The notes below the pieces were generated by a model, which was not told where the DNA came from, searched no databases, and saw only the letters and a list, made by a program, of their open reading frames with translations. From a virus: a DNA stretch of 30,685 bases. The stretch lies in the IMG/VR virus record IMGVR_UViG_3300042197_002952, positions 1 to 30,685 of that record. One strand, written 5' to 3'. Both the position numbers and the translations under genes were made by a program. Positions 8,225 through 29,955 of this stretch are shown in pieces (position 1 is the stretch's first letter; each line of letters opens with the position of its first letter).

Positions 8225-8719
8225 TTATTCAGAAATAAAAACACTTTTTACCGATTCATCACTATAATAATAGTACATTATTTTATTTTTTACAACTTCA
8301 ATCGGTCTACCAGTGATGTCTGTAATCATAACAACTTTTTTTGTGTCTAATATATTTTCGTCTAAATTGTTTGTCTTACAAATTTCTATAGCAAAATACA
8401 TTCCTCCAACATATTGAATTGGTCCAAAACATGCCGGTTGACAACCACAGGAACTATCTGGAATTGCACAAATCTGAAATGTAAAACTATCTAAAGAATC
8501 TGGAACATACAAAGTGTAATAATCTCCAAAATTAGTTCCATCAAAGTACCCACTTTGACTTATGTCGTTAAACTGCATATTTGTATAATTTTGACCACTC
8601 CAAGAAGCAACAAACTGATAATTACAATTGTGATTAAGAATATGACCATCCATTGTAGGTTGACAAATACCAAAAAAAGAAACTAAAACAAAACTAAAAA
8701 CTAAAATTAAATTTTTCAT
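8225..8719 (-). CDS. Secreted protein with signal peptide and sorting-tail-like C-terminus
   Basis: The start at 8719 gives MKNLILVFSFVLVSFFGICQ, a standard signal peptide with cleavage expected near ICQ-PT; 8728 is an alternative ATG. The mature part has several Cys (CGCQPACFG) and strands typical of an extracellular domain. The last 40 residues (VVMITDITGRPIEVVKNKI, YYYYSDESVKSVFISE) resemble the C-terminal domain used for export by the Bacteroidetes type IX secretion system. Export through the host is therefore likely. Role unknown. It sits between uvrC and umuD with short gaps. Confidence 0.75.
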   Translation of the reverse strand: MKNLILVFSFVLVSFFGICQPTMDGHILNHNCNYQFVASWSGQNYTNMQFNDISQSGYFDGTNFGDYYTLYVPDSLDSFTFQICAIPDSSCGCQPACFGPIQYVGGMYFAIEICKTNNLDENILDTKKVVMITDITGRPIEVVKNKIMYYYYSDESVKSVFISE

Positions 8720-8736
8720 AAAAAACATTTATTAAA

Positions 8737-10011
8737 TTAAACATACAACTTTTTACTTCTTTTTTTACGGTGAAAAGAAATAACAAACCGGTGAACTTCA
8801 TTTTGAACTTCTGCCAACAAAAACCCAAACTCATTTCGTGGAATATCAAATGATGATCCATCGGTTAAGTGGATTGTTTGAGATTGGTGTTTGTCGTTTT
8901 TAGAAATTGAAATCAAGTCGATACGAGACAACAAACCAAGAGATTCAAATACTTGTTTTGCAACACCCAACTGACCTTTACCACCATCAATAACGACAAG
9001 TGAAGGTAACTCTTGTTTTTCATTTAAAAGTCTTGTAAATCGACGATTTAATACCTCAGAAAAAGATGCATAATCATCCGGTCCCTGGACTGTTTTAATG
9101 TTGAACTTACGATAGTTTGACTTATCAGTTTTACCATTCTTGTAACGAACAAGAGCTGACACCTGACAGTCACCATTAGTGTGAGAGTTGTCAAACGCCT
9201 CAATCAAAGTAGGAACATTGATTAGACCTAAAGACTCTTTGAACTGACGGGCAACATCATTATACTTTCGAACACGAAAAGATTCAAGTTTTTTCTCAAG
9301 TGAATCAACAACAGAGATTTTGTTTTTGAAGTCATTTGCTTTTTCAAACTCCATAGAATCAGAAAAGTATTTCATAGATTTTTTCAAACGACTACGAACC
9401 TTGTCAAAGTCAAAAGAGAATACATCTTTCATCTCACTTACAATTTTCTTGTAGGAAAATTTTAGAATGTTTGAAATACAAGGAGCATTACAACGACCAA
9501 GATGAAACTCCAAACAAGTTTTGAACTTCTCGTTTGAAATATTTTCTTCAGTCAAGTTGTAAGAACAAGAACGAAGATTGAAAATGTCGTGAACCATCTC
9601 GTAGATTTCATAACAAGAGTTGGAACTTGTGGATTCCAAAAGAACTTCACCTGAAAAGTTAGATGGATTACAAACCAAAAGTCTTGGAAAGTCCTCATCG
9701 GTTAAAGTGATAAACCAACGACGAGATCTGTCGTCTTTTGCTTTGATGTTGTATTTTGGTTTTAAACTTTTGATAAGTTCATCCTCCAACAAAAGAGCTT
9801 GTGACTCATCGTTAGTAGTCATGAACTCAACATCACGGATCTCGTTGACAAGAGAGTTGGTCTTGATGTCCTTGTGATTTTTTTGAAAGTAAGACTTAAC
9901 CCTTTTAGGTAAAAACTTTGACTTACCCACATAAATGATCTGACCCTTCTCGTTTTTGAAAAGGTAACAACCGCTAGATTGGGGAATATTCGAAAGTTTT
10001 TCTGTAATCAC
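8737..10011 (-). CDS. uvrC: UvrC-like excinuclease, short form without HhH end
   Basis: This nuclease makes the two incisions beside bulky DNA lesions after UvrAB recognition. The GIY-YIG domain is at about 10-90 (GCYLF, IYVGKSKFLPKRVKSY). Four cysteines, C149, C166, C174 and C178, match the iron-sulphur ligands of E. coli UvrC. A UVR helix lies near 210-240. The RNase H-like nuclease domain has FDNSH (D274), the DDY motif at 312-314, VVIDGGKGQLG (D342) and NEVHRFVISFHR (H407). At 424 residues it ends right after this domain, whereas E. coli UvrC (610) continues with tandem helix-hairpin-helix motifs. Translation starts at GTG 10011. No uvrA or uvrB is visible, so it would have to use host partners or act alone. 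Confidence 0.95.
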   Translation of the reverse strand: MITEKLSNIPQSSGCYLFKNEKGQIIYVGKSKFLPKRVKSYFQKNHKDIKTNSLVNEIRDVEFMTTNDESQALLLEDELIKSLKPKYNIKAKDDRSRRWFITLTDEDFPRLLVCNPSNFSGEVLLESTSSNSCYEIYEMVHDIFNLRSCSYNLTEENISNEKFKTCLEFHLGRCNAPCISNILKFSYKKIVSEMKDVFSFDFDKVRSRLKKSMKYFSDSMEFEKANDFKNKISVVDSLEKKLESFRVRKYNDVARQFKESLGLINVPTLIEAFDNSHTNGDCQVSALVRYKNGKTDKSNYRKFNIKTVQGPDDYASFSEVLNRRFTRLLNEKQELPSLVVIDGGKGQLGVAKQVFESLGLLSRIDLISISKNDKHQSQTIHLTDGSSFDIPRNEFGFLLAEVQNEVHRFVISFHRKKRSKKLYV

Positions 10012-10975: not shown

Positions 10976-11159
10976 TATTATTTAGTATTAAATCTTTCAA
11001 TACGTTACTAGTTGGGTCAGTTTTTCCAACATTATAACTTGTAAAAGTTCCATCCGGATTTTTTGTTTTGATCATTGTAAACCCAAGTTCAGAAACAAAT
11101 ATTTTTTCTAATTCAACTGTCTTTCCTTCTAATTGTATTTTTAATTTTGTTTCTAACAT
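10947..11159 (-). CDS. Hypothetical protein, 70 residues
   Basis: It begins MLETKLKIQLEGKTVELEKI and contains TKNPDGTFTSYNVGKTDP. The alternating pattern suggests a small beta-rich fold. No domain is recognised. Its frame overlaps the 52-residue ORF upstream by 47 bases and the Smr gene downstream by 29 bases. These are unusually long overlaps even here, so one of the three starts may be off. Confidence 0.6.
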   Translation of the reverse strand: MLETKLKIQLEGKTVELEKIFVSELGFTMIKTKNPDGTFTSYNVGKTDPTSNVLKDLILNNNEYIRSSWS

Positions 11160-11271
11160 TGTTTTTAAACTTTCTTTTACTTTTTATAAATCTCAATAAT
11201 AGTTCACTTGGGATAAACAGTAAAATTACAACTGCGATCAATATTGCGGATATTTGTTCAAGAAAAATCAT
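11113..11271 (-). CDS. Small single-pass membrane protein, 52 residues
   Basis: The frame reads MIFLEQISAILIAVVILLFI and continues into a very basic tail (KSKRKFKNNVRNKIKN). One transmembrane helix followed by a positive cytoplasmic tail is typical of small inner-membrane proteins. Its ATG overlaps the stop of the 116-residue... gene upstream as ATGA, the same junction used by many genes here. It overlaps the next gene by 47 bases in another frame, which lowers confidence. Confidence 0.5.
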   Translation of the reverse strand: MIFLEQISAILIAVVILLFIPSELLLRFIKSKRKFKNNVRNKIKNTIRRKDS

Positions 11272-11576
11272 TCTAGAATAAATTTATATTCATTATTTTC
11301 CATTTCAACTTCTAATACTCCATCCCCTTCGGTTAATTTTTCAATTTGTTCTTTAGTTAATGTAACTTTTTCTGGTTCTAAAAATATTTTAAACGCTTGA
11401 GTTAATGTCAGTTTTGATTTTGAGATTAAATCAATTATTTGTTCATTAGGACACTCAACAATGGTTGGGTATTGACCTCCTACGGTTACAATCGCTTTAT
11501 CTCCAACCTCTAATTTATCTAATGATACCATGTAGGGTCTTTCTTCTACCATTATTAATTTTACTTTTTTTATCAT
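11268..11576 (-). CDS. Hypothetical protein, 102 residues
   Basis: The internal ATG at 11576 (MIKKVKLIMVEERPYMVSLD) is preferred to 11630. The longer form would begin inside the terminator region and have an atypical start. The protein has a beta-rich first half (VGDKAIVTVGGQYPTIV) and a Leu/Lys/Glu-rich second half. No domain is recognised. It is the first gene after the terminator at 11627-11655, so it should have its own promoter, but I see no clean TTG-N20-TAnnTTT match. Confidence 0.65.
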   Translation of the reverse strand: MIKKVKLIMVEERPYMVSLDKLEVGDKAIVTVGGQYPTIVECPNEQIIDLISKSKLTLTQAFKIFLEPEKVTLTKEQIEKLTEGDGVLEVEMENNEYKFILE

Positions 11577-11626
11577 GACTATATTATTTCTTAAATAAAT
11601 ATTAAAACATTTATTTGTTTTTGTAA

Positions 11627-11655
11627 ACAAAAAAGGGAAACATTACGTCTCCCTT
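11627..11655 (-). terminator. Rho-independent terminator after the DUF6011 gene
   Basis: On the minus strand, AAGGGA and TCCCTT form a 6-bp stem around an 11-base loop, followed by TTTTTG. It begins 15 bases after the stop at 11670. Confidence 0.75.
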
Positions 11656-11669
11656 CTTTGCCTAATCAA

Positions 11670-12416
11670 TTATTTTTGTTCGAACCAATATTTTGACATT
11701 TTCATAAGAACGTTGGTTTTTCCGTCCCAACTTTTAATTTGTCTTTTTGGTATCCAAAATTCCATTTCTCCGATTTCTTCAACTTTTTTCAAGTATTCTT
11801 CACGAAAACGATCAGCTTGACTTGCGTCAGTAATATATTCTACACCCATGTGTTTTGAACAAGTTTTACCCATTTTAGTTAACATTGAAAACTCGTCAGT
11901 TAAAGTACGTCCACAACACATACAAACATCACCACGTTTTACTGTCATTTTACCTGCGAACTTAACGGCTTTTTCTGAAAACCCTAATACACGAGTAAGG
12001 TCAATTAAAACTGGGTTGAATTTTAAACCATATTTCTCTTTAAGTTCTTGACCAATTCCTCGAGAAATTATAATTGTGTCACCTTCAGCCTTAACGTTCA
12101 TTGATCGAACAACAGTTTTGTTTTCTTCTTTTTGAATTGCTTTAATGGTAACCATGATTTGTTTATCGGTGAGATTACCGTATTTTTCTAATTTGGATTT
12201 GATATCGTTAATGAATGTATTTTTTCCTTCATAAGACATGATTTTTTTCATGTCGTCGGTCATTGCTTGTTTTGCTTCGGTAGGAGCTGTTAATATTTTT
12301 TGAACTGCCGCTTCTTGAGCCGGAGTTAACTTTCCGTACTTTTGAATTGTGTCTTTCATTTTGATAACGAAAGAATTTGAACCTTGGTAATTTTTAACTT
12401 GAGATACTGTTGACAT
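11670..12416 (-). CDS. DUF6011-type zinc-finger protein with two helical repeats
   Basis: The start at 12416 (MSTVSQVKNYQG) gives 248 residues; the longer frame to 12539 would cross a promoter and terminator. Residues about 9-42 and 62-95 are two copies of one unit: N-F-x6-L/I-x2-YG-x-LT-x2-Q. The later part has a four-Cys zinc site (GDVCMCCGRTLTD and MGKTCSKHMG), characteristic of DUF6011 domains in phage and plasmid proteins. These are thought to bind nucleic acid, often next to helicase or replication functions. The gene stands alone, with a strong Bacteroidetes-type promoter in front and a terminator behind. Confidence 0.82.
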   Translation of the reverse strand: MSTVSQVKNYQGSNSFVIKMKDTIQKYGKLTPAQEAAVQKILTAPTEAKQAMTDDMKKIMSYEGKNTFINDIKSKLEKYGNLTDKQIMVTIKAIQKEENKTVVRSMNVKAEGDTIIISRGIGQELKEKYGLKFNPVLIDLTRVLGFSEKAVKFAGKMTVKRGDVCMCCGRTLTDEFSMLTKMGKTCSKHMGVEYITDASQADRFREEYLKKVEEIGEMEFWIPKRQIKSWDGKTNVLMKMSKYWFEQK

Positions 12417-12443
12417 ATATATTTGTTTTAATTGATTATAATA

Positions 12444-12475
12444 CAAAGATAAAATACTTTTTCTAATTGGCCAAA
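12444..12475 (-). promoter_or_regulatory. Strong Bacteroidetes-type promoter for the DUF6011 gene
   Basis: TTTG, 20 bases, TATCTTTG on the minus strand is a full match to the TTTG / TAnnTTTG consensus. The box ends 28 bases before the ATG, leaving a short A/T-rich leader without a Shine-Dalgarno sequence, as is usual in Bacteroidetes. Confidence 0.75.
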
Positions 12476-12484
12476 TTTTTTTTA

Positions 12485-12519
12485 AATAAAAAAAAGGGGA
12501 GTAGCGAATTCCCCTTTTT
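12485..12519 (-). terminator. Rho-independent terminator of the third tail-fibre gene
   Basis: GGGGA and TCCCC form the core of a stem extended by A/T pairs, with a 9-base loop and eight T on the minus strand. It separates the tail block from the DUF6011 gene. Confidence 0.8.
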
Positions 12520-12548
12520 AATGTTGCCTTAACAGACAACGGTCCTAA

Positions 12549-12572
12549 AAGCCCACCACTAAAGGTGGGATA
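12549..12572 (-). terminator. Additional hairpin just after the tail-fibre stop
   Basis: CCCACC and GGTGGG pair across a 6-base loop. The T tract on the minus side (CTTTTAGG) is short, so this may be mRNA 3'-end protection or a weak first terminator ahead of the strong one at 12485-12519. Confidence 0.5.
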
Positions 12573-12578
12573 TTTTTA

Positions 12579-15467
12579 TTATACAATTTTTAAGAAACAA
12601 TTTGCATCTTTATATACAGATCCAATTGGTAAACCTAACGGTGATGGTGGTATGTTCACTATTGATAAGTTATTAACAAATGTTGTACATGCTCTGTCAG
12701 TAATAATATTGGACCCAACAACAAAAGATTTATCTGTTTGTAGTGTGTTACTTGATCCACCTAATATTGATGAATCTGTAATTCCTAATCCAATAATTGT
12801 GTTACAACTACCACCAAGAATAGTAGAAGTTCTTGAGGTAATTGACCCGCATATTAAATTTTTACATCCTGACCCTATAAATGAACATCCTAATTGCACA
12901 GTATTACACTCTCCTGCTCCAATTGTAGATTTTGAAACTTGAAAATTGAATCCTTGTTTTTTATTGATAATATTACAAGATCCGTTAATTATTGAACTCC
13001 ACCATGCATTATCGATTGTATTTAGTTCTCCACCAAGAATACTAGAATAAACAGATTGCCGCTGAATTATATTACCTTGACCAACTAAAATAGCCGATAA
13101 TGGTGCATTAATAAGTTTATTTGTTGCACCTCCACCTAAAAATGAAGCGGGACTAATAGATGTTGTATTATTTTGACCTCCACCCAAAAATGCATAATTA
13201 GATGAATTAATAATGTTAGCACAACCACCACCAATGAAAGCAGTAACGGTACTTCCTGATAATATATTTAATGCCCCACCTACAATTGTCGAACAACATG
13301 ATTGTGATTGAATTATATTACTTTGTCCACCATTAATAGAGGAATTTACATTATTGGAAAGAATTGTATTAGATGTGCCCCCACCAATTGAAGCAAAAAC
13401 ACTACAAATTTTATTTAATGTACCACCTAGGATTGAAGATGAGACTGATCCCACGCTAATCTCATTTTGAACTCCTATAACAAAGGAACAAGCTCCGTTA
13501 GCAATGTTTGAATTTCCACATCTTAATGTTGATCCCAAACCTACTCCTGCAATCATAACACCTCCACCACTTCCACCAGTACTAAATCCTGATGCTGTTA
13601 CTGTAGAACCATTTGTATTTGTAAGGGTAAGAACTCCTGTCCCAGTGTTGTAAGAAGCTCCTGTTAAATAGATATCTTGTAATCCTGAAATTACAACAGA
13701 ACCGTTTTGTCTATTTAATGTTAAATTACCTGTGTTATAATTTAAGGTTCCTCCAGTTACAAAATAATCTGTAGTTCCAGTTAAAAATCCTGAAGTAGTT
13801 ACAATTGATCCATCGGTATTTGTTAAACTTAAAACTCCTGTTCCAGAGTTGTAAGAAGCACCTGTTAAGAAGACATCAGTATAACCGGTTAAGAATCCTG
13901 AAACATCAAAAGTATTTCCAGAGTTTGTTGTGAATGTTGCAATACCAGTAACTGGGTTGTAAGTTCCACCTGTTACTGTCATGTCGGAAGCAAGAATTGA
14001 CAAATTAACCGTATAGTTATTTCCATCATTAACTTCAGCCGTTAAATCAAATGTTCCTGGATTCCAGGTTAGACCTGTTAAATAGTAATCAGTTCCTCCG
14101 GTGTATAATCCTGTAACCACAACAGGAGATACTCCGTTATTGTAGTTAAGAGTTAATTCACCTGTAAGTTGATTGTATGTTGCTCCAGTCGTATAAGTGT
14201 CTTGTAAACCTGAAATTACAACTGACCCGTTTTGTTTACTTAAAGTTAAATTACCTGTATTATAATTTAAGGTTCCACCGGTTACAAAATAATCATGGAT
14301 CCCTGAAACAACAACACTACTCAAATCATTATTTACAAGTGTTAGTTCTCCGGTGTTATAATCAATTGTTCCGCTTACTAAAAATTTATCTTGTGTTATA
14401 GGTGATGAAACAACATTTCCTGAAGAATCAATTCCTAAATTAGTAACCACAGGATTAACACCAAGTGTTTGTATGTTTAAGTTCGGAACATAAACCGTAT
14501 CATTTTGAGTTCCAGTAATATTAGATCCTCCAAGAATAACTGAATTATTTGCGCTTAAAGTTGATCCAACTGAAAAAATTAAAGATTCATTTCCAGAAAT
14601 AAAATTATTCTTACCTCCAACAATAACATTTCTTTCACCAACAGAATCAATTGCATTAACATCACCACCAAGAATGGATGATCTATCAGATAAAACAGTA
14701 TTTGATTCTCCACCAACAATAATTCCATAATTACTATTAAGAGTGTTAAGTGTACCTCCACCAATAAATGAATAATTTGTTGGTATACCTGGTTTCATTA
14801 AATTATCTAAACCACCAACTATTACATTATAACCACCACCACCGGTGTTTATTTGATTGTTACTACCAGCAACAATAGTTGAGTAATCTTCATCTATTAT
14901 TACGTTTTCTCTACCGCCATTTATTGAGTTATAAGATGGTGTTGATAAAACACTATAAATTTTGTTATCATATCCTCCATCAATGTTACTATAAATTGAC
15001 GTATGAATTTTATTAAGTCCACCGGAGTTTATACTAGAAAAACATGTATTAGATAATGTATTATTTTGTCCAAAATTTATATTTGATAATCTAGCATTTG
15101 ACAAAGTATTAAATCCACCACCACCAATTTTATTTGTTTTAGAAAATTGTGTTATGGTATTAGAATATCCATTATCAATAGAATTACATCCAGATGCAGT
15201 ATTTGTTATTGTATTAGAAGCACCATTTGTTATTGTATTATACCCACTTTGTGCTGAAATTTTATTATTACTTCCAGAAACTATTGTCGAGTAGTTTCCA
15301 GTTGCAGTGTTTGATATACCACCAATTACATTTGTATAACTATTTACTGCGGTATTGAGTCTACCTGCTAAAACAGAACTATACGTTCCTAGTGCTGCGT
15401 TGTTTAATCCACATCTTACCGTGGTCGAGGATCCTCCAATTGGGTCGTCAATTATTACAAAAGCCAT
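12579..15467 (-). CDS. Giant beta-solenoid tail-fibre/adhesin-like protein A, 962 residues
   Basis: It opens MAFVIIDDPIGGSSTTVRCG, identical to its neighbour B and nearly so to C. Residues up to about 330 are 13-16 residue repeats of the form S-x-I-x-G-G-x-x-N-x-I, a YadA-head-like beta-roll or solenoid. About 340-640 are 30-40 residue beta units (TGASYNSGTGVLSLTN type). A second solenoid block begins VMIAGVGLGSTLRCGN and runs to the C-terminal cap (TTFVNNLSIVNIPPSPLG, then PIGSVYKDANCFLKIV). No signal peptide or anchor is present, which favours a phage tail fibre or receptor-binding protein over a host adhesin. Many Cys occupy equivalent repeat positions. The gene is monocistronic with its own motif and terminator. 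Confidence 0.8.
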   Translation of the reverse strand: MAFVIIDDPIGGSSTTVRCGLNNAALGTYSSVLAGRLNTAVNSYTNVIGGISNTATGNYSTIVSGSNNKISAQSGYNTITNGASNTITNTASGCNSIDNGYSNTITQFSKTNKIGGGGFNTLSNARLSNINFGQNNTLSNTCFSSINSGGLNKIHTSIYSNIDGGYDNKIYSVLSTPSYNSINGGRENVIIDEDYSTIVAGSNNQINTGGGGYNVIVGGLDNLMKPGIPTNYSFIGGGTLNTLNSNYGIIVGGESNTVLSDRSSILGGDVNAIDSVGERNVIVGGKNNFISGNESLIFSVGSTLSANNSVILGGSNITGTQNDTVYVPNLNIQTLGVNPVVTNLGIDSSGNVVSSPITQDKFLVSGTIDYNTGELTLVNNDLSSVVVSGIHDYFVTGGTLNYNTGNLTLSKQNGSVVISGLQDTYTTGATYNQLTGELTLNYNNGVSPVVVTGLYTGGTDYYLTGLTWNPGTFDLTAEVNDGNNYTVNLSILASDMTVTGGTYNPVTGIATFTTNSGNTFDVSGFLTGYTDVFLTGASYNSGTGVLSLTNTDGSIVTTSGFLTGTTDYFVTGGTLNYNTGNLTLNRQNGSVVISGLQDIYLTGASYNTGTGVLTLTNTNGSTVTASGFSTGGSGGGVMIAGVGLGSTLRCGNSNIANGACSFVIGVQNEISVGSVSSSILGGTLNKICSVFASIGGGTSNTILSNNVNSSINGGQSNIIQSQSCCSTIVGGALNILSGSTVTAFIGGGCANIINSSNYAFLGGGQNNTTSISPASFLGGGATNKLINAPLSAILVGQGNIIQRQSVYSSILGGELNTIDNAWWSSIINGSCNIINKKQGFNFQVSKSTIGAGECNTVQLGCSFIGSGCKNLICGSITSRTSTILGGSCNTIIGLGITDSSILGGSSNTLQTDKSFVVGSNIITDRACTTFVNNLSIVNIPPSPLGLPIGSVYKDANCFLKIV

Positions 15468-15478
15468 TTTGTTTGTTT
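15403..15478 (-). repeat. 76-bp identical 5' segment shared by genes A and B
   Basis: This segment covers the first codons and the start of the leader. It is identical to 18318-18393, so the two 5' ends were recently copied or are held identical by recombination. Confidence 0.85.
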
Positions 15479-15501
15479 GTTTTTAAAAATTTATTGTTTA
15501 G

Positions 15502-15512
15502 TTATAAATATC
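15502..15512 (-). promoter_or_regulatory. GATATTTATAA motif, candidate late promoter of gene A
   Basis: It lies between the gene B terminator and the gene A ATG, 35 bases before the start. The surrounding ~26 bases match those before gene B. No TAnnTTTG promoter is present, so this motif is the best candidate for transcription initiation. Confidence 0.5.
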
Positions 15513-15527
15513 TATTAAATTTCGTTT

Positions 15528-15560
15528 AAAAAAAAAGGAGAAAAAATCTCCTTTTTTTTA
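15528..15560 (-). terminator. Terminator after gene B
   Basis: GGAGA and TCTCC form the core stem, extended by A/T pairs, with a T run on the minus strand. It begins about 18 bases after the gene B stop. Confidence 0.8.
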
Positions 15561-15577
15561 TAATTTTTAGTTTTGAA

Positions 15578-18382
15578 TTAAGGTACAATTCTTAATGTAT
15601 TGTCAGCTGTACATCTCCAAACAGAACCTGATGGAAGACCAGATGATGATGGTGGTACATTCATTATTGATAAATTGTTTACAAATGTTGTACAAGCTCT
15701 GTTTGAGCAGATTCCGTCTCCAATAATAAATGAACAAGCATTTTTCACTGTGTTATTCCATCCACCTAAAATTGCGGATCTAGTATTATTTAATAATATT
15801 GTGTTACTATTACCATTCAATATTGATGAGTAGGAAGAGTTTATTATGTTATTAGTACCAGCTCCAATGAAGGTATGAACGTCAGTTAACTTATTATTAA
15901 AACCACCAACAATTATAGTTGAGTTATTTATTGCGGTATTGAATGATCCACCGCCAATAAATACTTCTTGACCAATTGATGTATTACATAGTCCTCCCGT
16001 AATAACACTATTAATTGAGGCATCCATTAAATTGGATTCTCCCCCAACAATTAAGGAGCCAAATGAGTATCCTTGAATTTTATTACACTGTCCACTACCT
16101 ATAAAAGAATATCTATACCCTGTTATAGAATTCCTGTATCCACCTGAAATTAAAGAATAATTTGGTCCCCCCAGAGCAAGATTTCTGATAATACTGTTAC
16201 ATTCGCCACCAAGTACTGAAGCATATATAGTACAAGTAATTGTATTACACAAACCTGCAACCACATTTGAGTAGGAACTAGAACAAATGACTTTGTTAGA
16301 AACTCCTCCTAAAATTGTTGAATATTGTGAATCTACAACATTACCAGTACCTGCCCCGATAATTGAACCAAAAGCAGTACAATGTATTGTATTATAATTT
16401 CCACCCACTATAACAGAACTATTCGATCCTGATCCAGCTTTAAAGATAGTATTTTGGGCTCCACCCCCAATAAAATTTGCATCGTTAGAACTTAATGTAT
16501 TACAAAAACCTCCAGAAATTACAGAACAACTGTCTCCGGCAAGAATACTATTATTACTCCCGCCTCCAATCACAGATTGGTCAGCACCCACCAAAATTGT
16601 ATTAAATCTACCTCCACTTACGTTGGTGTAAGCTCCGTTTGATAAATTTGAATTTCCACATCTTAAAACTGAACCCGTACCTGTTCCAGCGATCATAACA
16701 CCTCCACCGGTACTAAATCCTGTTGCCGTTACAGTAGAACCATTTGTATTTGTTAAGGTAAGAACTCCTGTTCCAGAGTTGTAAGATGCTCCTGTTAAAT
16801 AAATGTCTGTAAATCCAGTTAAGAATCCTGAAGTTGTCACGATTGATCCATCGGTATTTGTCAAACTTAAAACTCCTGTTCCGGAATTGTAAGACGCTCC
16901 TGTCAAGAAAATATCTGTATATCCAGTTAAGAATCCTGAAACGTCGAATGTATTTCCAGAGTTAGTTGTAAATGTTGCAATACCAGTGATAGGATTATAT
17001 GTTCCTCCTGTTACAGTCATGTCGGAAGCAAGAATTGACAAATTAACTGTATAGTTATTTCCATCATTAACTTCGGCCGTTAAATCAAATGTTCCTGGAT
17101 TCCAGGTTAAACCTGTTAAATAGTAATCAGTTCCTCCGGTATATAATCCTGTAACAACAACAGGAGATACTCCGTTATTGTAGTTAAGAGTTAATTCACC
17201 TGTAAGTTGATTATAAGTTGCTCCAGTTGTGTAAGTGTCTTGCAAACCTGTTAATGTCACTTGACCTAATTGTGTATCAAGAACAATGGTTCCATTATTA
17301 TAATCAATTGTTCCTCCGGTAACATAATAATCATGGAAACCTGGAATTACAACAGATGTTCCTTTATTATCAAATAAGGTTAGATTACCAGTTGTGTAAT
17401 CGATTGTTCCTCCGGTAATAAAAACGTCTTGAGTTGGCGCTGCAACCACAACATTTCCTAGAGCATCAATTCCTAAATTATCAACCGCGGTTCCAGATCC
17501 TAAATTTTTTATATTAAAATAAGGTACATAAACCGTATCATCTTGAGTTCCTGAAATATTTGATCCTCCAAGAATTACAGATCTATTTCCAGATAAAGTA
17601 GAATTACAAGATAAAATAAATGATGAATTACCACTTAATTTGTTGTTATAACCAACAACAGCATTGTAACTTCCACTCGAGATTGTGTTAAGATCGCCAC
17701 CAAGTATTGTATCTGAAACACCATTAGAATTAATTGTGTTTTTACATCCTCCGATAACATTTGAAAAATCTGTTATAATTGTATTTCTTAATCCTCCGCC
17801 CATAAAAGAATATTCAGTTATGTTTGGTCCTGGAGTTCCTATAATACTTTCTCTAGCGTGTGAAATTAATGTAAATTTAGAGTTTTGGATGGTGTTTTTA
17901 AAACCTCCTCCAATCGCATTGTATCCTTGAGTTGCGTTTATTGTATTACATTGTCCTTGCGTGATATGTGATGAACAAATATCAATATTTGTATTTCTTT
18001 GACCTCCTAATACAGATACAAAACAACCAGAAACTACGTTATTGTTACCATTTAAAATTGTTCCTTGTGGGCTCAAATTAGTGTTATATGCTCCGTTATT
18101 GATTGTTGCGTAACCATTGGTTGTTGTGTTATATAAACCACCTAAAATTGAGCTATATGATGCATTAAGAGAAATTATGTTGTTTAATCCGCCAACTATT
18201 GATGTGTAAGCTGATCTAACAGTGTTTTGATTACCTCCGGCGATTACACCATATTGTGAAGTTACGGTATTACATCTTCCTGCTAATACACCAGAATAAA
18301 GTTGTAGTACCGCATTATTTAATCCACATCTTACCGTGGTCGAGGATCCTCCAATTGGGTCGTCAATTATTACAAAAGCCAT
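15578..18382 (-). CDS. Giant beta-solenoid tail-fibre/adhesin-like protein B, 934 residues
   Basis: Same plan as protein A: the MAFVIIDDPIGGSSTTVRCG start, a solenoid block to about 320, beta units (FLTGYTDIFLTGASYNSGTG type) to about 565, a second solenoid from VMIAGTGTGSVLRCGN, and a C-terminal cap ending GLPSGSVWRCTADNTLRIVP. The GLPxGSV cap occurs at the ends of many phage tail proteins and may help trimerisation. Residues about 126-424 are encoded by a segment that appears identical in DNA to part of gene C, while the first 120 residues and the second solenoid differ. That mosaic pattern fits exchange of receptor-contact domains. Phage structural role is inferred from context. Confidence 0.8.
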   Translation of the reverse strand: MAFVIIDDPIGGSSTTVRCGLNNAVLQLYSGVLAGRCNTVTSQYGVIAGGNQNTVRSAYTSIVGGLNNIISLNASYSSILGGLYNTTTNGYATINNGAYNTNLSPQGTILNGNNNVVSGCFVSVLGGQRNTNIDICSSHITQGQCNTINATQGYNAIGGGFKNTIQNSKFTLISHARESIIGTPGPNITEYSFMGGGLRNTIITDFSNVIGGCKNTINSNGVSDTILGGDLNTISSGSYNAVVGYNNKLSGNSSFILSCNSTLSGNRSVILGGSNISGTQDDTVYVPYFNIKNLGSGTAVDNLGIDALGNVVVAAPTQDVFITGGTIDYTTGNLTLFDNKGTSVVIPGFHDYYVTGGTIDYNNGTIVLDTQLGQVTLTGLQDTYTTGATYNQLTGELTLNYNNGVSPVVVTGLYTGGTDYYLTGLTWNPGTFDLTAEVNDGNNYTVNLSILASDMTVTGGTYNPITGIATFTTNSGNTFDVSGFLTGYTDIFLTGASYNSGTGVLSLTNTDGSIVTTSGFLTGFTDIYLTGASYNSGTGVLTLTNTNGSTVTATGFSTGGGVMIAGTGTGSVLRCGNSNLSNGAYTNVSGGRFNTILVGADQSVIGGGSNNSILAGDSCSVISGGFCNTLSSNDANFIGGGAQNTIFKAGSGSNSSVIVGGNYNTIHCTAFGSIIGAGTGNVVDSQYSTILGGVSNKVICSSSYSNVVAGLCNTITCTIYASVLGGECNSIIRNLALGGPNYSLISGGYRNSITGYRYSFIGSGQCNKIQGYSFGSLIVGGESNLMDASINSVITGGLCNTSIGQEVFIGGGSFNTAINNSTIIVGGFNNKLTDVHTFIGAGTNNIINSSYSSILNGNSNTILLNNTRSAILGGWNNTVKNACSFIIGDGICSNRACTTFVNNLSIMNVPPSSSGLPSGSVWRCTADNTLRIVP
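17111..18007 (-). repeat. 897-bp duplicated segment, copy in gene B
   Basis: Read line by line, this stretch matches 20318-21214 without a difference that I could find, at a constant offset of 3,207 bases. On both sides the sequences diverge clearly within a few bases. Confidence 0.9.
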
Positions 18383-18393
18383 TTTGTTTGTTT
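18318..18393 (-). repeat. 76-bp identical 5' segment, copy at gene B
   Basis: Identical to 15403-15478. It covers the leader end and the codons for the shared N-terminus. Confidence 0.85.
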
Positions 18394-18411
18394 TTTAAGT
18401 TTATTATTTAG

Positions 18412-18422
18412 TTATAAATATC
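18412..18422 (-). promoter_or_regulatory. GATATTTATAA motif, candidate late promoter of gene B
   Basis: It lies 30 bases before the ATG, immediately after the gene C terminator, in the same arrangement as at gene A. Confidence 0.5.
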
Positions 18423-18437
18423 TATTAAATTTCATTT

Positions 18438-18474
18438 TAAAAAAAAAAGGGAGAAAAACTCTCCTTTTTTTTTA
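18438..18474 (-). terminator. Terminator after gene C
   Basis: GGAGA and TCTCC pair across a 5-base loop, flanked by long A and T runs, 14 bases after the gene C stop. Confidence 0.8.
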
Positions 18475-18487
18475 TATTTTTTCAGTT

Positions 18488-21400
18488 TTATGGTACTATA
18501 AACAGACCATTTGTTGATGGGTTTCTCCAAACAGATCCAATTGGTAAACCTGCCGGTGATGGTGGAATATTCATTATTGATAAGTTATTAACAAATGTAG
18601 AACAAGATCTATTTGCGGTAATGTTGGATCCAATAATAAATGTTTTATTTTGGGATTGTATTGAATTGAATTGTCCACCGAAAATTCCGGAATTAGTAGA
18701 TGAATCGATAATATTGGCAGAACCTCCATTTATTGTTGAGCAATTAGAACTTGTTGATATTTGATTATAACAACCTCCATCAATATTTGAATAATTAGAT
18801 GATGATACATAATTATTGGTACCGCCACCTATATTTGAATGAAAAGAATATTCTATCTTATGGTCTTGTCCTACTAAAATTAAATTATTGTTTCCTCCTA
18901 AAATTGTATTTTGTAATCCTACACCAACAAAAGACCTAGTAGTCCCAGAGACAATATTATTACCACCGTTTATAATTAAGGAACTATTACTGGATACTAT
19001 TCTACCGTTATAACCTCCTAATATTGTACTAAAACCTGATCCTTGAACTGTGTTTTTACAACCTGCGGCGATAGTACCAGAAGACGAAATTAACGTATTT
19101 TGTTGTCCACCAGCAATATTACTGAAACTTGCGTTCCAAATTGTATTAGTAAATCCACCACCAACTGTTGAATTAAATCCAAAATTTTTGTTGCTATCTC
19201 CACCTGAAATTACAGATCCGGTACCAGAAGTCCCCCCTAAAGCTGAGTATCCTATTGTATTACTTAAACCACCACCAATAGAAGCTCCGTATCCAAAACA
19301 TATCATATTACATTGACCACCAACAATTAAGGATCTTGTTGTACTTTGAAGGTTAACTGGGTCTCCAACAATTGTATTATAAAATCCTCCACCAATGAAA
19401 GAATGCGCACCGCAGGATTTATTATATTCACCTCCAGATATTGTTGAGGATATACAATTTGTTGTATTTCCCCATCCACCTCCAATTACAGACATATCAG
19501 AATTAATATAATTTTCTAATCCTCCTCCAATGGAGTTTCTACACCCATTAATTTGATTACATTGTCCACCAACTATGACAGAAGCATAATTATTTGTCAG
19601 TGTGTGAAATTTATTTCCGTCTCCACCACCAATAAATCCACTTAATGCCGTATTTGTGTTTTGACCACCACCACCAATAAATGAATTACCATAATTAGTT
19701 GTGGTATTAAATTGTCCTCCAGCAATAACGGATAATCCATCAGAAATTAAATTCGATCTACCTCCTCCAATCACAGAACAAGTGGCTGCGCTCAGAATAG
19801 TATTGGCAAAACCACCGCTTACGGCAGAACAAACAGCGTTTGCGGTATTTAAATTTCCACATCTTAAAACTGAACCCGTACCTGTTCCAGCGATCATAAC
19901 TCCACTTCCACCACCGGTACTAAATCCAGTGGCAGTAAATTGAACTCCGTCATTTCTTCCTAATGTTAAAACACCAGTTCCAGAGTTATAAGTTGCTCCA
20001 GTAACGTATATATCTGTTGTTCCAGTCAAAAATCCTGAAGTTGTCACAATTGATCCATCGGTATTTGTCAAACTTAAAACTCCTGTTCCAGAGTTGTAAG
20101 ATGCTCCTGTTAAGTATATGTCTGTATATCCTGTCAAAAATCCTGAAACATCAAAAGTATTTCCAGAGTTAGTTGTAAATGTTGCAATACCAGTAACTGG
20201 GTTGTAAGTACCGCCGGTAACTGTCATATCACTTGCTAAAATAGATAAACTAACTGTGTAATTATTTCCATTATTAACTTCAGCCGTTAAATCAAATGTT
20301 CCTGGATTCCAAGTTAGACCTGTTAAATAGTAATCAGTTCCTCCGGTATATAATCCTGTAACAACAACAGGAGATACTCCGTTATTGTAGTTAAGAGTTA
20401 ATTCACCTGTAAGTTGATTATAAGTTGCTCCAGTTGTGTAAGTGTCTTGCAAACCTGTTAATGTCACTTGACCTAATTGTGTATCAAGAACAATGGTTCC
20501 ATTATTATAATCAATTGTTCCTCCGGTAACATAATAATCATGGAAACCTGGAATTACAACAGATGTTCCTTTATTATCAAATAAGGTTAGATTACCAGTT
20601 GTGTAATCGATTGTTCCTCCGGTAATAAAAACGTCTTGAGTTGGCGCTGCAACCACAACATTTCCTAGAGCATCAATTCCTAAATTATCAACCGCGGTTC
20701 CAGATCCTAAATTTTTTATATTAAAATAAGGTACATAAACCGTATCATCTTGAGTTCCTGAAATATTTGATCCTCCAAGAATTACAGATCTATTTCCAGA
20801 TAAAGTAGAATTACAAGATAAAATAAATGATGAATTACCACTTAATTTGTTGTTATAACCAACAACAGCATTGTAACTTCCACTCGAGATTGTGTTAAGA
20901 TCGCCACCAAGTATTGTATCTGAAACACCATTAGAATTAATTGTGTTTTTACATCCTCCGATAACATTTGAAAAATCTGTTATAATTGTATTTCTTAATC
21001 CTCCGCCCATAAAAGAATATTCAGTTATGTTTGGTCCTGGAGTTCCTATAATACTTTCTCTAGCGTGTGAAATTAATGTAAATTTAGAGTTTTGGATGGT
21101 GTTTTTAAAACCTCCTCCAATCGCATTGTATCCTTGAGTTGCGTTTATTGTATTACATTGTCCTTGCGTGATATGTGATGAACAAATATCAATATTTGTA
21201 TTTCTTTGACCTCCCAAGATTGAAGAAAAATTTCCACAAACTAGGTTATTATTACCATTTAAAATTGTTCCTTGCGGACTAAAATGTGTATTATACGCTC
21301 CGCCACCAATAATTCCATAACTAGAGTTAGGACCCATACAGTTAGAAAAACCATTAAGTATTGTCGTATATTGACACCTTGTGGTGTTACACGCCCCGTT

Positions 21401-21595
21401 TAAAATTACGCTGTAACCTGCTTGTGTTGAATTTGAGTTTTTACAGCCACCAATTGTTAAACTGTATTGCCCAGCGGCAAAATTACATTGACCCGCAAGG
21501 TTTCCACTATACAGAGCACTAGAAATGTTACTTAATCCACATCTTACTGTAGATGTTGGTCCTCCAATCGGGTCGTCAATTATTACAAAAGCCAT
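18488..21595 (-). CDS. Giant beta-solenoid tail-fibre/adhesin-like protein C, 1,035 residues
   Basis: This is the longest and first-transcribed of the three paralogues. It starts MAFVIIDDPIGGPTSTVRCG, then has a solenoid block to about 320, beta units to about 565 and an extended second solenoid (about 570-990) with many more turns than A or B. The cap is TTFVNNLSIMNIPPSPAG followed by LPIGSVWRNPSTNGLFIVP. Repeats follow S-x-I-x-G-G-x-x-N-x-I with scattered Cys (GGQCNQINGCRNSIGGG). Residues about 127-425 share an apparently identical DNA segment with gene B. The extra solenoid turns suggest repeat gain by slippage or recombination. Receptor binding is inferred; no enzymatic domain is seen. 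Confidence 0.8.
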   Translation of the reverse strand: MAFVIIDDPIGGPTSTVRCGLSNISSALYSGNLAGQCNFAAGQYSLTIGGCKNSNSTQAGYSVILNGACNTTRCQYTTILNGFSNCMGPNSSYGIIGGGAYNTHFSPQGTILNGNNNLVCGNFSSILGGQRNTNIDICSSHITQGQCNTINATQGYNAIGGGFKNTIQNSKFTLISHARESIIGTPGPNITEYSFMGGGLRNTIITDFSNVIGGCKNTINSNGVSDTILGGDLNTISSGSYNAVVGYNNKLSGNSSFILSCNSTLSGNRSVILGGSNISGTQDDTVYVPYFNIKNLGSGTAVDNLGIDALGNVVVAAPTQDVFITGGTIDYTTGNLTLFDNKGTSVVIPGFHDYYVTGGTIDYNNGTIVLDTQLGQVTLTGLQDTYTTGATYNQLTGELTLNYNNGVSPVVVTGLYTGGTDYYLTGLTWNPGTFDLTAEVNNGNNYTVSLSILASDMTVTGGTYNPVTGIATFTTNSGNTFDVSGFLTGYTDIYLTGASYNSGTGVLSLTNTDGSIVTTSGFLTGTTDIYVTGATYNSGTGVLTLGRNDGVQFTATGFSTGGGSGVMIAGTGTGSVLRCGNLNTANAVCSAVSGGFANTILSAATCSVIGGGRSNLISDGLSVIAGGQFNTTTNYGNSFIGGGGQNTNTALSGFIGGGDGNKFHTLTNNYASVIVGGQCNQINGCRNSIGGGLENYINSDMSVIGGGWGNTTNCISSTISGGEYNKSCGAHSFIGGGFYNTIVGDPVNLQSTTRSLIVGGQCNMICFGYGASIGGGLSNTIGYSALGGTSGTGSVISGGDSNKNFGFNSTVGGGFTNTIWNASFSNIAGGQQNTLISSSGTIAAGCKNTVQGSGFSTILGGYNGRIVSSNSSLIINGGNNIVSGTTRSFVGVGLQNTILGGNNNLILVGQDHKIEYSFHSNIGGGTNNYVSSSNYSNIDGGCYNQISTSSNCSTINGGSANIIDSSTNSGIFGGQFNSIQSQNKTFIIGSNITANRSCSTFVNNLSIMNIPPSPAGLPIGSVWRNPSTNGLFIVP
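20318..21214 (-). repeat. 897-bp duplicated segment, copy in gene C
   Basis: Partner of 17111-18007. The copies encode the end of the first solenoid and the first beta units in the same frame in both genes. Confidence 0.9.
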
Positions 21596-21626
21596 TTTGT
21601 TTGTTTGTTTAAATGTTTATTTTTGT

Positions 21627-21637
21627 TAATAAATATC
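21627..21637 (-). promoter_or_regulatory. GATATTTATTA motif, candidate late promoter of gene C
   Basis: The core is shared with genes A and B, 32 bases before the ATG. The leader ends in the same AAACAAACAAA-type A-rich tract, which probably replaces a Shine-Dalgarno sequence. Confidence 0.45.
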
Positions 21638-21653
21638 TCAACAAACCAACTAT

Positions 21654-21884
21654 TTACTTTTTTTTATTTATGTGAATTTTATCCACACTATAAAAACAAT
21701 AATTTTCTTCATCGATATGGCATTGCTCAACTTTTACAACTAAAGAATCTTTATTTTGTAAACTACCATATGCGTCACAACCAGACTTACTTGATTTACA
21801 ACTTGATAGTATCAAAACAAAAACTGATGCCACTAACAATACAATAAACAAATAAATTTTATTTAAACTTTTCATTATCTTCAT
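21654..21884 (-). CDS. Small lipoprotein, up to 76 residues
   Basis: A hydrophobic signal (IYLFIVLLVASVFVLILSS) ends in a lipobox LSSC, so the mature protein would be lipid-anchored at Cys29 (counting from 21884) with about 48 exposed residues and three more Cys. A second ATG at 21875 is equally good. Phage-encoded small lipoproteins often block superinfection or act as outer-membrane spanins. Nothing here decides between these. It overlaps the upstream gene and is the last gene before tail gene C. Confidence 0.75.
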   Translation of the reverse strand: MKIMKSLNKIYLFIVLLVASVFVLILSSCKSSKSGCDAYGSLQNKDSLVVKVEQCHIDEENYCFYSVDKIHINKKK

Positions 21885-22047
21885 TTTTATTTTTTATTAA
21901 TTCCATTTTTAATGAACATGGATCAAAACATATATATGTCATACATTTTTTTATTTCATGTGTCATACAATCATAATATAAATCACCTTTTAAAATTGGT
22001 TTTTTTATATTTGCTTTATAAATATTTCCTTTGTGTTCTATTTTCAT
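21859..22047 (-). CDS. Small Cys-containing hypothetical protein, 62 residues
   Basis: The sequence starts MKIEHKGNIYKANIKKPILK and has four Cys in the segment YDCMTHEIKKCMTYICFDPC, which could bind a metal ion. It lacks a signal peptide. The ATG overlaps the AAA+ ATPase stop (4 bases) and its end overlaps the lipoprotein gene, so all three are in one operon. Confidence 0.65.
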   Translation of the reverse strand: MKIEHKGNIYKANIKKPILKGDLYYDCMTHEIKKCMTYICFDPCSLKMELIKNKNEDNEKFK

Positions 22048-23039
22048 TTTCCAAATCCTACTTTTCCTGATCCTTTTATTGTTGGCGCTTTTTTCAATCC
22101 TTCGAGATTATCCATTACTTCCTCAAATTCTCTACCCATAACAATAGTTGAAATAACAACTTCTTTCAAATGAGATAATGACATACCATCGGTTCTTTTA
22201 ATCCATTCTTTTATGTCTATGTTTTTCAAATCATCCTCCGTTAACTTGTGACGAATGTAAGCTTTTCGGATTTCTTCATTTGGAAGTTCAACTTTATATC
22301 GTCTGTCAAAACGGGAAGGTCTATTTGTAATTCGTTCTTGAAGTTTTTCAGGATAGTTTGTTGTTGCGATATACACAACATCTTCAATCTGTTTTACTCC
22401 ATCAAGAATGTTTAGTAATTTACTTGTAGAGTGATTACTTTCTCCGGCAATAGAATCAATGTCTTCCAACAAAACAATCAAAGGTCTATTTGGTTCAATT
22501 TTTCTAAATGTTGCAATGAAATCAATAAAATATTCAACATCGTCATGGTCTTTGATGTTGAGAATAATTCCGTCGTTTTCAATTAGTTGTTTTGAAATTA
22601 ATTGAATTATTCCTGACTTACCACATCCTGGTTCGCCATACATTAAAATCCCACGCTTATGAACAAAGTTATACTCTCGATATTTGTCTCTACGATCCCA
22701 AAAATTTTGGATGTCTTTAAGAATGTCTTGAATTTCATGAGAAGGTAATTGATATAATTCATCTGTTTTGAATGGTTGTCTTTTTATTGTGTTTTGAGAT
22801 AAAGATCTGTTCCACATTATTTCATAAATACCGGGAGGCACTTTATCTACTGATTTAAAAGCCGGAACAAACTCTTCGTCTTGTAATGATCCCCAACATG
22901 TTGGAGTTGATGAATTTAAACTGTCAGATTTTTCATTATTTACATATTCGTTTATAGTAATACCTGAATTATATTCAATCATTTCTATATTGTCCAACTC
23001 CGCCATCATTTCTTCTAATCTTTTTTCGGTATCACTCAT
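22044..23039 (-). CDS. AAA+ ATPase
   Basis: This 331-residue ATPase has Walker A GEPGCGKS at 135-142, Walker B PLIVLLEDIDS at 186-196, sensor-1 Asn228 in IATTNYP, and arginine-finger residues in NRPSRFDRR (239-247). A small helical lid follows. The segment RGILMYGEPGCGKS and the FtsH/BCS1-like ATTN and RFDRR motifs place it in the classic AAA clade of protein-remodelling ATPases. No protease or membrane domain is attached. The first 100 residues are acidic and variable. Similar proteins occur in large phages, where the target is unknown. It follows the WCTA-motif gene by 13 bases. Confidence 0.9.
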   Translation of the reverse strand: MSDTEKRLEEMMAELDNIEMIEYNSGITINEYVNNEKSDSLNSSTPTCWGSLQDEEFVPAFKSVDKVPPGIYEIMWNRSLSQNTIKRQPFKTDELYQLPSHEIQDILKDIQNFWDRRDKYREYNFVHKRGILMYGEPGCGKSGIIQLISKQLIENDGIILNIKDHDDVEYFIDFIATFRKIEPNRPLIVLLEDIDSIAGESNHSTSKLLNILDGVKQIEDVVYIATTNYPEKLQERITNRPSRFDRRYKVELPNEEIRKAYIRHKLTEDDLKNIDIKEWIKRTDGMSLSHLKEVVISTIVMGREFEEVMDNLEGLKKAPTIKGSGKVGFGK

Positions 23040-23052
23040 CTTACTTTATATT

Positions 23053-24060
23053 TTATAATATTTCATTAATGTTTATAATTCTAGTCGTATTTTGTTTCAT
23101 CAAAAATTCTTGTTCTTCCTGATTTAAATATTCATCTGGTAATGATAGATAATCAGACGGTGTTGGTTGAATGTCGTCAAATAAGGGACCTTGATATTGT
23201 AGACCATTAGTCGTCATTTCAGATAATAAACACCTTGATTTTGGAATTATTTTATTTTCATCATCTATCCAAACATAATTTAGCATTTTTCCTATTTCTT
23301 CGTTTGTGAAAAATTTATAGTTAGGTACGTTTGTTTGTAGTTCGTCGTGTATAATTTTAAGTAAATTGTGTGGTAATCCAGTTTCAAATGAATCAATTCT
23401 ATAATCGGTTTTATTATAAACAATAAAAGCATTTTGGTATTTATAATCTTCTGGACTCATGTCGATGTCTTTATAAAACGCAAACTTATCATCAGTTTTT
23501 TTATCTATCACATAAATCAAAATTCCTTTGGAATGTTTGTAGAAATAATCTGGTTCTCTGACTGATGCGGTACACCACTTTGTTTGATAACCATAAGTAC
23601 AAGATGTGTTGTAATTTAGTGGTCTGATGATTAAATGTGTATCATCTTCAAAAATTTTTTTATATTCTTTTTTTGAATTTTTAAAATTTTGTTTGTTTTT
23701 TGCAACATAAAGTTGATGTTCAATTTCGTCCCATGAATTATAGTTTGAAATATCTTTTTTCTCAATAAGATTTTTTTCCATAAGATTTGAAAATTCAACA
23801 AACATTCTTAAATTTTCGTAACCAATCAATCTTTCTGAAACTCTTTGGATCATTGCATTTTCGATATTTGTTGTTTGAAACAATTCCGAAAACTCTGATG
23901 TTGGTTCCAGATTAATATAAGGTCCTTCCAAACTCATATTTAACATTTTAACAAGAAACTGCGTGTATTTATTTGTTTCGCTTATATCATAATACGCCAA
24001 CACATCTACTATTGTTTTTGTTAGATGTGGATTTTCTTTTTTTATTTTTTTAGTTCCCAT
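23053..24060 (-). CDS. Phage protein with KWCTAS motif, function unknown
   Basis: The 335-residue protein carries GYQTKWCTASVREPDYFYKH, followed by GILIYVIDKKTDDKFAFYKD. This pair (WCT(A/S), then a glycine and hydrophobic strand with K-x-A-F) recurs in otherwise unrelated hypothetical proteins of myoviruses. Its N-terminal half is helical and its C-terminus acidic (LPDEYLNQEEQEFLM). No catalytic assignment is possible. Its placement just upstream of the AAA+ ATPase suggests a joint function, possibly adaptor and motor. Confidence 0.75.
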   Translation of the reverse strand: MGTKKIKKENPHLTKTIVDVLAYYDISETNKYTQFLVKMLNMSLEGPYINLEPTSEFSELFQTTNIENAMIQRVSERLIGYENLRMFVEFSNLMEKNLIEKKDISNYNSWDEIEHQLYVAKNKQNFKNSKKEYKKIFEDDTHLIIRPLNYNTSCTYGYQTKWCTASVREPDYFYKHSKGILIYVIDKKTDDKFAFYKDIDMSPEDYKYQNAFIVYNKTDYRIDSFETGLPHNLLKIIHDELQTNVPNYKFFTNEEIGKMLNYVWIDDENKIIPKSRCLLSEMTTNGLQYQGPLFDDIQPTPSDYLSLPDEYLNQEEQEFLMKQNTTRIININEIL

Positions 24061-24370: not shown

Positions 24371-25165
24371 TTATATAATTTTATTTTTTTTTATTACGTT
24401 ATTTACTGATGTCTCTGGTCTGTGATAAACTGGTTGAGTTTTTTTTATAATACTAATAACTTCTCTGTTTCTATGATGTATTTCTTGGTTTACGTACTTA
24501 ACTCCACATTCAATTGTTTTTTTGATTTTGTCTCTAGTGACATATCTACCGCCCTTTGTGTCCTTAACTCCGTCTTGAATTGCACTTTTAACTATTTCGG
24601 GTTGTGAGAACGATAAATTACAAATTTGTTTAACCCCATTTTGAATGGTATCTTCAACGTAATCCTTCAGTTCCAACCAAACATCCCTGGTGTGCTTCAC
24701 CCCATTTTGAATGGTGTCTTCAACCACGAACCGATTCAAGCCAACATGGTGTTTGGTGTGCTTCACCCCATTTTGAATGGTGTCTACAACAAAAACGTTA
24801 CATCGACATTGATCGTAATGGGTGTCCTTCACTCTATTTTGAAATATGTCTTCAGGAAAAAAGTCACGCTTTGACAATTCGGTTTGTTTCACCTGATTGA
24901 TATTTAAGTATCTAGATTCAAACCATTTTTGAATAAGGTCTTTATTATCAACACAATCCAAATTGCATAATCTCATTTTTTTTTCAAAAAATTGATAGTT
25001 ATACCATAATGTGTTATTTTCTGTAAACTCTAAAATCCAATTTTGTTTTTCAGTGTTTATAACCCACAAACTTCCATTATTTTTATATCTGTCTATTGAT
25101 AAAATGAATTTATCAAAAATATAAAACAACAATTTTTCTATTTTTTCTTTACTACTTTTTTTCAT
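24371..25165 (-). CDS. 22-residue tandem-repeat protein (DTIQNGVKHT repeats)
   Basis: The 264-residue protein has an N-terminal domain of about 85 residues (NGSLWVINTEKQNWILEFTE, TLWYNYQFFEKK). It is followed by at least six units of exactly 22 residues, each with a conserved DTIQNGVKHT-like core and a 12-residue variable part, then a lysine-rich end. Cores run from DIFQNRVKDT through three nearly identical DTIQNGVK units to decaying SAIQDGVKDT and KTIECGVKYV. Similar N-terminal-plus-repeat proteins appear in flavobacterial and phage sequences, but I know no function. It is followed one base later by a 37-residue membrane ORF. Confidence 0.8.
   Translation of the reverse strand: MKKSSKEKIEKLLFYIFDKFILSIDRYKNNGSLWVINTEKQNWILEFTENNTLWYNYQFFEKKMRLCNLDCVDNKDLIQKWFESRYLNINQVKQTELSKRDFFPEDIFQNRVKDTHYDQCRCNVFVVDTIQNGVKHTKHHVGLNRFVVEDTIQNGVKHTRDVWLELKDYVEDTIQNGVKQICNLSFSQPEIVKSAIQDGVKDTKGGRYVTRDKIKKTIECGVKYVNQEIHHRNREVISIIKKTQPVYHRPETSVNNVIKKNKII
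24504..24860 (-). repeat. Six tandem 66-bp units inside the repeat protein gene
   Basis: The conserved CCATTTTGAATGG-type core (plus strand) begins at 24504, 24570, 24636, 24702, 24768 and 24834, exactly 66 bases apart. The middle three are almost identical over about 30 bases and the outer ones are degenerate. The intervening DNA differs between units. Confidence 0.9.
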
Positions 25166-29751: not shown

Positions 29752-29955
29752 TTAACCAGGAAAGTAATATGAAATAAAAAGATTAAATTTTGAAATGTTT
29801 TCCATTAAAAAACATATTAAAAGAAAAGTTAAAAACCAAATAACCGCAGTTGATGTTAAAGGAATAGTCTTGATTGAATATTTTATAAAATCAAAAATGT
29901 CCGAAATTAAAAATGACAGAATAAAAATAATTAAAATAAAAATTAATAAAATCAT
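29752..29955 (-). CDS. Two-segment membrane protein, 67 residues
   Basis: Two hydrophobic stretches, at residues 1-20 (MILLIFILIIFILSFLISDI) and about 36-54 (STAVIWFLTFLLICFL), are joined by a polar turn. The ATG overlaps the stop of the secreted protein gene upstream (ATGA). Membrane topology is the only clue to function. Confidence 0.65.
   Translation of the reverse strand: MILLIFILIIFILSFLISDIFDFIKYSIKTIPLTSTAVIWFLTFLLICFLMENISKFNLFISYYFPG

Follow-up and report, generated by a model that had tools for sequence, protein, structure and literature searches.

Phages that carry several receptor-binding proteins are already known, and have been studied best in the form of the enzymatic tailspikes of enterobacterial phages. 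According to the sections covered of PMC8825819, Ackermannviridae such as phage CBA120 possess the tailspike proteins TSP1-4, the N-terminal parts of which assemble and anchor the proteins and the remainder of which recognises hosts. The Klebsiella jumbo phage Muenster is described, in the part of PMC8407769 covered, as having nine tail fibres. Here we report on a 30,685-nt stretch of viral DNA (IMG/VR record IMGVR_UViG_3300042197_002952, positions 1 to 30,685; the whole stretch is called the window) in which three tandem genes, A, B and C, encode fibre-like proteins. We consider it rather probable that these are accessory virion fibres, most likely serving host attachment (receptor binding), of a Bacteroidota phage that is probably a jumbo phage.

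The locus resembles that of the Ackermannviridae, as far as the covered sections describe it (PMC8825819), in that several adjacent genes of one phage encode attachment proteins, a role that for A, B and C is predicted. It differs in that the paralogues have most of the anchor and shaft in common, that no enzymatic domain is seen and that the copy number varies between 0 and 3 at one site; a branched complex built through assembly (XD) domains is a mark of TSP1-4. Muenster is comparable in holding several fibre genes in one large genome, a likeness of description and not of sequence, whereas the A/B/C array is tandem and shows conversion. With respect to fold, the nearest systems are the heads of trimeric autotransporter adhesins (UspA1, YadA, CbpF, BpaC), among which UspA1 is the best solved match. 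UspA1 consists mostly of 15-residue repeats with an extra glycine (PMC9543794), a form that fits the G-G repeats of A, B and C. The latter are, however, phage-encoded and composed of two roll blocks with a repeat shaft between them and a phage-type cap. Direct reading of their N-terminus, MAFVIIDDPIGG, revealed no charged-hydrophobic signal peptide, and a Pfam scan at E up to 1 no YadA-type membrane anchor. As neither was found, the proteins fall outside the autotransporter family, although they bear adhesin-head-like rolls.

The genes are tandem paralogues, all on the minus strand, with reading frames unbroken from end to end and spacers of 105–110 nt (Table 1). Each open reading frame (ORF) is intact and encodes roll 1, shaft, roll 2 and cap in this order, in agreement with the original prediction, which a model had made from the sequence and which proposed three tandem genes of one internal plan. 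The same prediction had the first 20 residues common to all; they are identical in A and B, while C deviates at three positions (13–15, SST to PTS). The common C-terminal cap (LPxGSVWR) was found as predicted, with 60–68% identity among the three. The shaft comprises seven repeat starts spaced by 31–37 residues. Approximate counts, made by regular expression, gave about 14–17 turns for the first roll block and 19 (A), 19 (B) and 25 (C) for the second, which differs, as had been foreseen, in both turn number and sequence. Cysteines number 17, 21 and 24 in A, B and C, respectively; the rolls are rich in them, and the shafts have none.

Table 1. Positions of the array, its modules, its flanking signals and its landmark genes in the window.
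Feature	Position	Strand	Basis or remark
AAA ATPase gene, upstream landmark	22044..23039	(-)	Pfam AAA; syntenic in relatives
Promoter-like motif of C, GATATTTATTA	21627..21637	(-)	motif search
Gene C	18488..21595	(-)	1035 aa fibre-like protein; intact ORF, roll homology to UspA1
C: conserved N-terminus and roll 1, residues 1-285	20741..21595	(-)	module boundaries; invariant N-terminal alignment columns
897-nt tract in C identical to B tract	20318..21214	(-)	exact match
C: neck and shaft repeats, residues about 285-565	19901..20743	(-)	module boundaries
C: roll 2, divergent block, residues about 565-997	18605..19903	(-)	module boundaries, sequence comparison
C: C-terminal cap, last 50 residues	18491..18640	(-)	same cap in A, B, L113, L163, L109, L110
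Terminator-like hairpin after C	18441..18473	(-)	hairpin search, T runs on both sides
Promoter-like motif of B, GATATTTATAA	18412..18422	(-)	motif search
Gene B	15578..18382	(-)	934 aa fibre-like protein; intact ORF
897-nt tract in B identical to C tract	17111..18007	(-)	exact match
Terminator-like hairpin after B	15529..15559	(-)	hairpin search
Promoter-like motif of A, GATATTTATAA	15502..15512	(-)	motif search
Gene A	12579..15467	(-)	962 aa fibre-like protein; intact ORF
Terminator-like hairpin after A	12552..12569	(-)	hairpin search
DUF6011-like gene, downstream landmark	11670..12416	(-)	below Pfam cut-off; host-type TATCTTTG promoter element at 12444-12451

Searched as profiles against solved structures, the first and second halves of the proteins both returned the head of UspA1 from Moraxella (3pr7; E=6.1e-29 and E=1.8e-19, respectively), as did C as a lone query (E=1.1e-5). 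The next hit of the first half was the plant ice recrystallisation inhibition beta-roll 3ult (E=5.4e-6). The repeat of 14–15 residues with a conserved glycine that characterises UspA1/YadA-like rolls is recognisable, with spacings of mostly 15–17 residues per turn and with G and N columns invariant in the alignments. In a Pfam scan no family exceeded its curated cut-off, the grass-type ice-binding beta-roll LbR_Ice_bind remaining sub-threshold in B and C (21.5 and 21.4 against a cut-off of 30) and A being without a match; a PHROG search matched no family. As in the original prediction, no enzymatic domain or signal peptide was seen. In AlphaFold single-chain models the turns have two short strands each, with a predicted local distance difference test score (pLDDT) mostly of 70–90 in roll 1 and the first half of roll 2, the shaft and the later turns being of low confidence. 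Structural alignment placed the adhesin CbpF among other solenoids matching roll 2 (Z 15.6, root-mean-square deviation 7.7). Foldseek matches of the first half to beta-propellers (template modelling score about 0.1) were disregarded, as they run through the low-confidence shaft; the second half had no match below E 0.001 in the Protein Data Bank and, among viral predicted structures, was closest to proteins of uncultured phages (E=3e-8). The fold of the giant beta-solenoids of the original prediction is better stated as a left-handed parallel beta-roll of the UspA1/YadA-head type, judging by homology. Each protein probably trimerises.

Relatives' loci (L numbers) were gathered by landmark gene, 26 through the AAA ATPase and 43 through DUF6011. 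A known downstream landmark is also present in 23 of the AAA loci, with no A/B/C-like gene in between; in L038, L039 and L044 a small lipoprotein gene is directly followed by the DUF6011 gene and its TATCTTTG element, and a similar lipoprotein gene precedes C in the window. Three further loci hold A/B/C-type genes at the same place, flanked by the AAA ATPase before (74–78% identical where present) and by HAD and w11268 genes after. The AAA site thus has no copy in 23 loci, one in L163, two in L113 and L129 and three in the window. The view of the array as an insertion confined to this genome was accordingly rejected. L113 and L129 come from two different metagenomes and are identical over 3,573 nt; one of the L113 copies is short (417 aa). 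In the 272–290-kb relatives, A/B/C-type genes were not detected. The comparison of related phages called for by the original prediction therefore yields a copy number of 0, 1, 2 or 3 at a single syntenic position; a stable one-to-one orthology of all three genes was looked for in the related loci and not found. These data support an accessory array that is variable in copy number.

The modules differ in how far the copies have diverged. Among A, B and C, identity is 44–45% in roll 2, compared with 79–95% in the shaft. For individual pairs, roll 1 and shaft are, respectively, 83% and 95% identical between B and C, 51% and 83% between A and B, and 70% and 83% between the two L113 copies, whereas the window copies and the L113/L163 group have 45–54% and 57–69% in common. 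Copies from one phage group thus generally resemble each other more in anchor, roll 1 and shaft than copies from different groups do, although roll 1 of A is no nearer to B and C than to other phages, A being grouped by its shaft. In the tree of the anchor/shaft half, joining C with L113_2 was strongly rejected (approximately unbiased (AU) test, p=3e-41). In roll 2, a segment common to C and L113_2 is identical at 29 of 40 positions; other pairs reach at most 22/40, except B and C at the conserved roll start (27/40). The tree of the whole of roll 2 is unresolved and was rejected as a demonstration that C and L113_2 are orthologous, for which only the local segment speaks. B and C further contain an identical tract of 897 nt, the flanks of which are 68% (5′) and 82% (3′) identical. 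Because the flanks have diverged around it, a recent whole-gene duplication cannot account for the tract; recent internal gene conversion or recombination between B and C can give such a tract. No reverse transcriptase indicative of a diversity-generating retroelement was found among the window ORFs scanned, the genome being a fragment and some ORFs unscanned.

The N-terminus MAFVII[DN]DP together with the first roll occurs on several other uncultured phage contigs, where one N-terminus is combined with several different C-termini. The conserved N-terminal and variable C-terminal parts by which tail fibres and receptor-binding proteins are recognised are therefore present in this family. In the genome_contigs collection, the N-terminal DNA pattern had no match. 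In L001-L003, a gene with this N-terminus lies between those for the terminase large subunit and the portal, followed by head protease and major capsid genes (families assigned on L003). Such a position in the head module would suit whisker or head fibres, or proteins decorating the capsid, whose role is non-specific adhesion to particles, mucus or cells without any influence on host range, and so would the dispensability of the A/B/C-type genes, which most relatives lack. However, the C-terminal half of the L001-L003 proteins is unlike that of A, B and C. Glycosyltransferase genes are also among the neighbours of the family: tandem pairs with the same N-terminus in L004, L005 and others adjoin structural and glycosyltransferase genes, the L005 pair being bordered by a structural-type gene and glycosyltransferase-type genes. 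In a 304-kb relative two proteins bear the A/B/C-type cap, one encoded within a tail-type block of genes (L110) and one beside glycosyltransferase and sulfotransferase genes (L109). Tips that diverge while the mount is conserved, moreover, fit selection for specific binding better, and we regard non-specific decoration as rather unlikely. The structural neighbourhoods in relatives are the best available evidence that the family would be structural. The tandem roll-protein genes of L109 (10398-13770) and L005 (15918-18505) are followed by glycosyltransferase genes, in L109 also by a sulfotransferase gene, and the encoded enzymes could modify the fibres.

The motif GATATTTATNA was searched across the window and its enrichment judged against shuffles. 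It has four matches, with 0.40 expected, and none of 100 shuffles reached four; three of the matches stand before A, B and C, at 29–34 nt from the respective ATG, and the fourth precedes the ATG of the homing endonuclease (1469) by 12 nt. Terminator-like sites are likewise frequent in 11000-23100 (12, with 4.9 ± 2.4 expected), and one hairpin follows each of the three genes. The motif and terminator predicted for every gene are thus both present and support three separate transcription units. The neighbouring DUF6011-like gene, unlike A, B and C, carries a TATCTTTG element, which we take to resemble the TAnnTTTG element of Bacteroidota promoters. In the sense orientation, TATTTAT (TATTTATA-type) precedes 31 of 79 virion-module genes, a larger share than among early-type genes (80 of 359; Fisher p=0.0026), and the two sets differ in the distance profile of the motif. 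As an antisense control it was found at 19/79 and 27/359, respectively, so that the motif is strand-biased in both sets, with antisense matches raised in the virion loci. A T4-type late promoter was considered for the TATTTATA-type motif and rejected; TATAAATA is the reverse complement of the sequence upstream here.

Could A, B and C simply be ordinary tandem duplicates that drift and form no functional repertoire, roll 2 differing since repeat proteins easily change their number of turns? The number of beta-roll repeats does vary in all relatives, and the short L113 copy and the lack of resolution in roll 2 are compatible with drift. On the other hand, every copy in the window is intact, with its own motif and terminator and a kept cap, and homogenisation has affected anchor and shaft but not roll 2. 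As copy loss is common, three intact copies suggest use, and drift appears improbable. That the proteins are non-virion beta-rolls freed at lysis, such as ice-binding or matrix proteins, is very hard to maintain, for although LbR_Ice_bind lies above the Pfam cut-off in the relative L115 and 3ult was matched as described, UspA1 scores far better, A, B and C have neither signal peptide nor type IX secretion system (T9SS) sorting domain, and the N-terminus family is located in virion modules of relatives.

Several observations weigh against receptor-binding fibres. The locus lies in an early-type accessory region, apart from the tail genes. Because strand bias is present in both gene sets, the TATTTATA-type motif is graded promoter-like and not late-specific. 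A tblastn search of cultured phages gave no match, with low-complexity filtering as a caveat. In the tree of the whole of roll 2, A, B and C as one clade have an AU p of 0.16. Finally, an exact repeat of 897 nt is hard for short-read metagenomic assembly, so the copy number could be wrong: the assembler could have under-counted copies, but is unlikely to have scrambled their order because two direct repeat copies permit only one ordering, and despite this caveat the two-copy array agrees between L113 and L129. The cassette array of alternative receptor-binding proteins originally proposed is thus supported in part, as regards separate transcription units, a copy-variable array with common anchor and shaft, a divergent second block and homologues in structural gene neighbourhoods.

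From domain homology and gene neighbourhood we infer virion location, tip orientation and receptor binding; the last is likely. In a virion fibre of this type, the conserved N-terminus and roll 1 would dock on the virion, the repeat shaft would provide spacing, and roll 2, the divergent block, would form the exposed tip together with the cap. Copies would be gained and lost in the tandem array at its one genomic site. Gene conversion between adjacent copies would keep anchor and shaft alike and the mount compatible, and tips would persist or be exchanged, so that one mount would serve a limited set of tips within a lineage. The three may be displayed jointly or serve as alternatives. As a tentative extension, the array may be a recombination-driven repertoire of up to three adhesin-like fibres, in which conversion keeps mount and shaft alike and tips are retained or exchanged from copy to copy and from phage to phage; it would then be a non-enzymatic, retroelement-free analogue, for host attachment, of antigenic-variation arrays.

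As to lineage, moraphages are described as large aquatic T4-like phages of Bacteroidota hosts, nine genomes of which have glutamine synthetase and some DnaK, and the sections of PMC12619734 covered do not describe fibre arrays of the A/B/C kind. The glutamine synthetase of the window (4664-5800) is 68–86% identical to copies in 272–304-kb relatives, and the thymidylate synthase has its nearest counterpart in a Flavobacterium phage (51%). Moraphages are the probable home lineage, on common traits and not on core-gene placement. The thymidylate synthase gene adjoins that of a GIY-YIG homing endonuclease (528-1469), before the ATG of which a GATATTTATAA motif stands at 1482-1492, as in A, B and C. 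The window further contains a DNA-damage cluster with a UmuC/UmuD-like pair and a UvrC-like protein (6660-8173 and 8737-10011), an ORF (8225-8728) for which the search gave no relative, and a protein with imperfect VEDTIQNGVKHT-type repeats (24371-25165) whose length varies among relatives. A gene at 29952-30683, running past the end of the window, ends in the type IX secretion C-terminal sorting domain Por_Secre_tail, as found also in L021, L035, L038, L039, L041, L042 and L044; long versions in relatives have 645–1353 aa, some with a signal-like N-terminus. Because of this domain and these N-termini, the product may be exported by the T9SS of the host.

In these large, uncultured Bacteroidota phages, a similar logic of multiple receptor-binding proteins would be realised by beta-rolls of the adhesin-head type. 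The site with 0, 1, 2 or 3 copies and the conversion tract suggest how a set of fibres grows, shrinks and stays compatible with one mount. If this is confirmed, copy number and tip sequence at the locus could help to predict the breadth of host range of uncultured phages.

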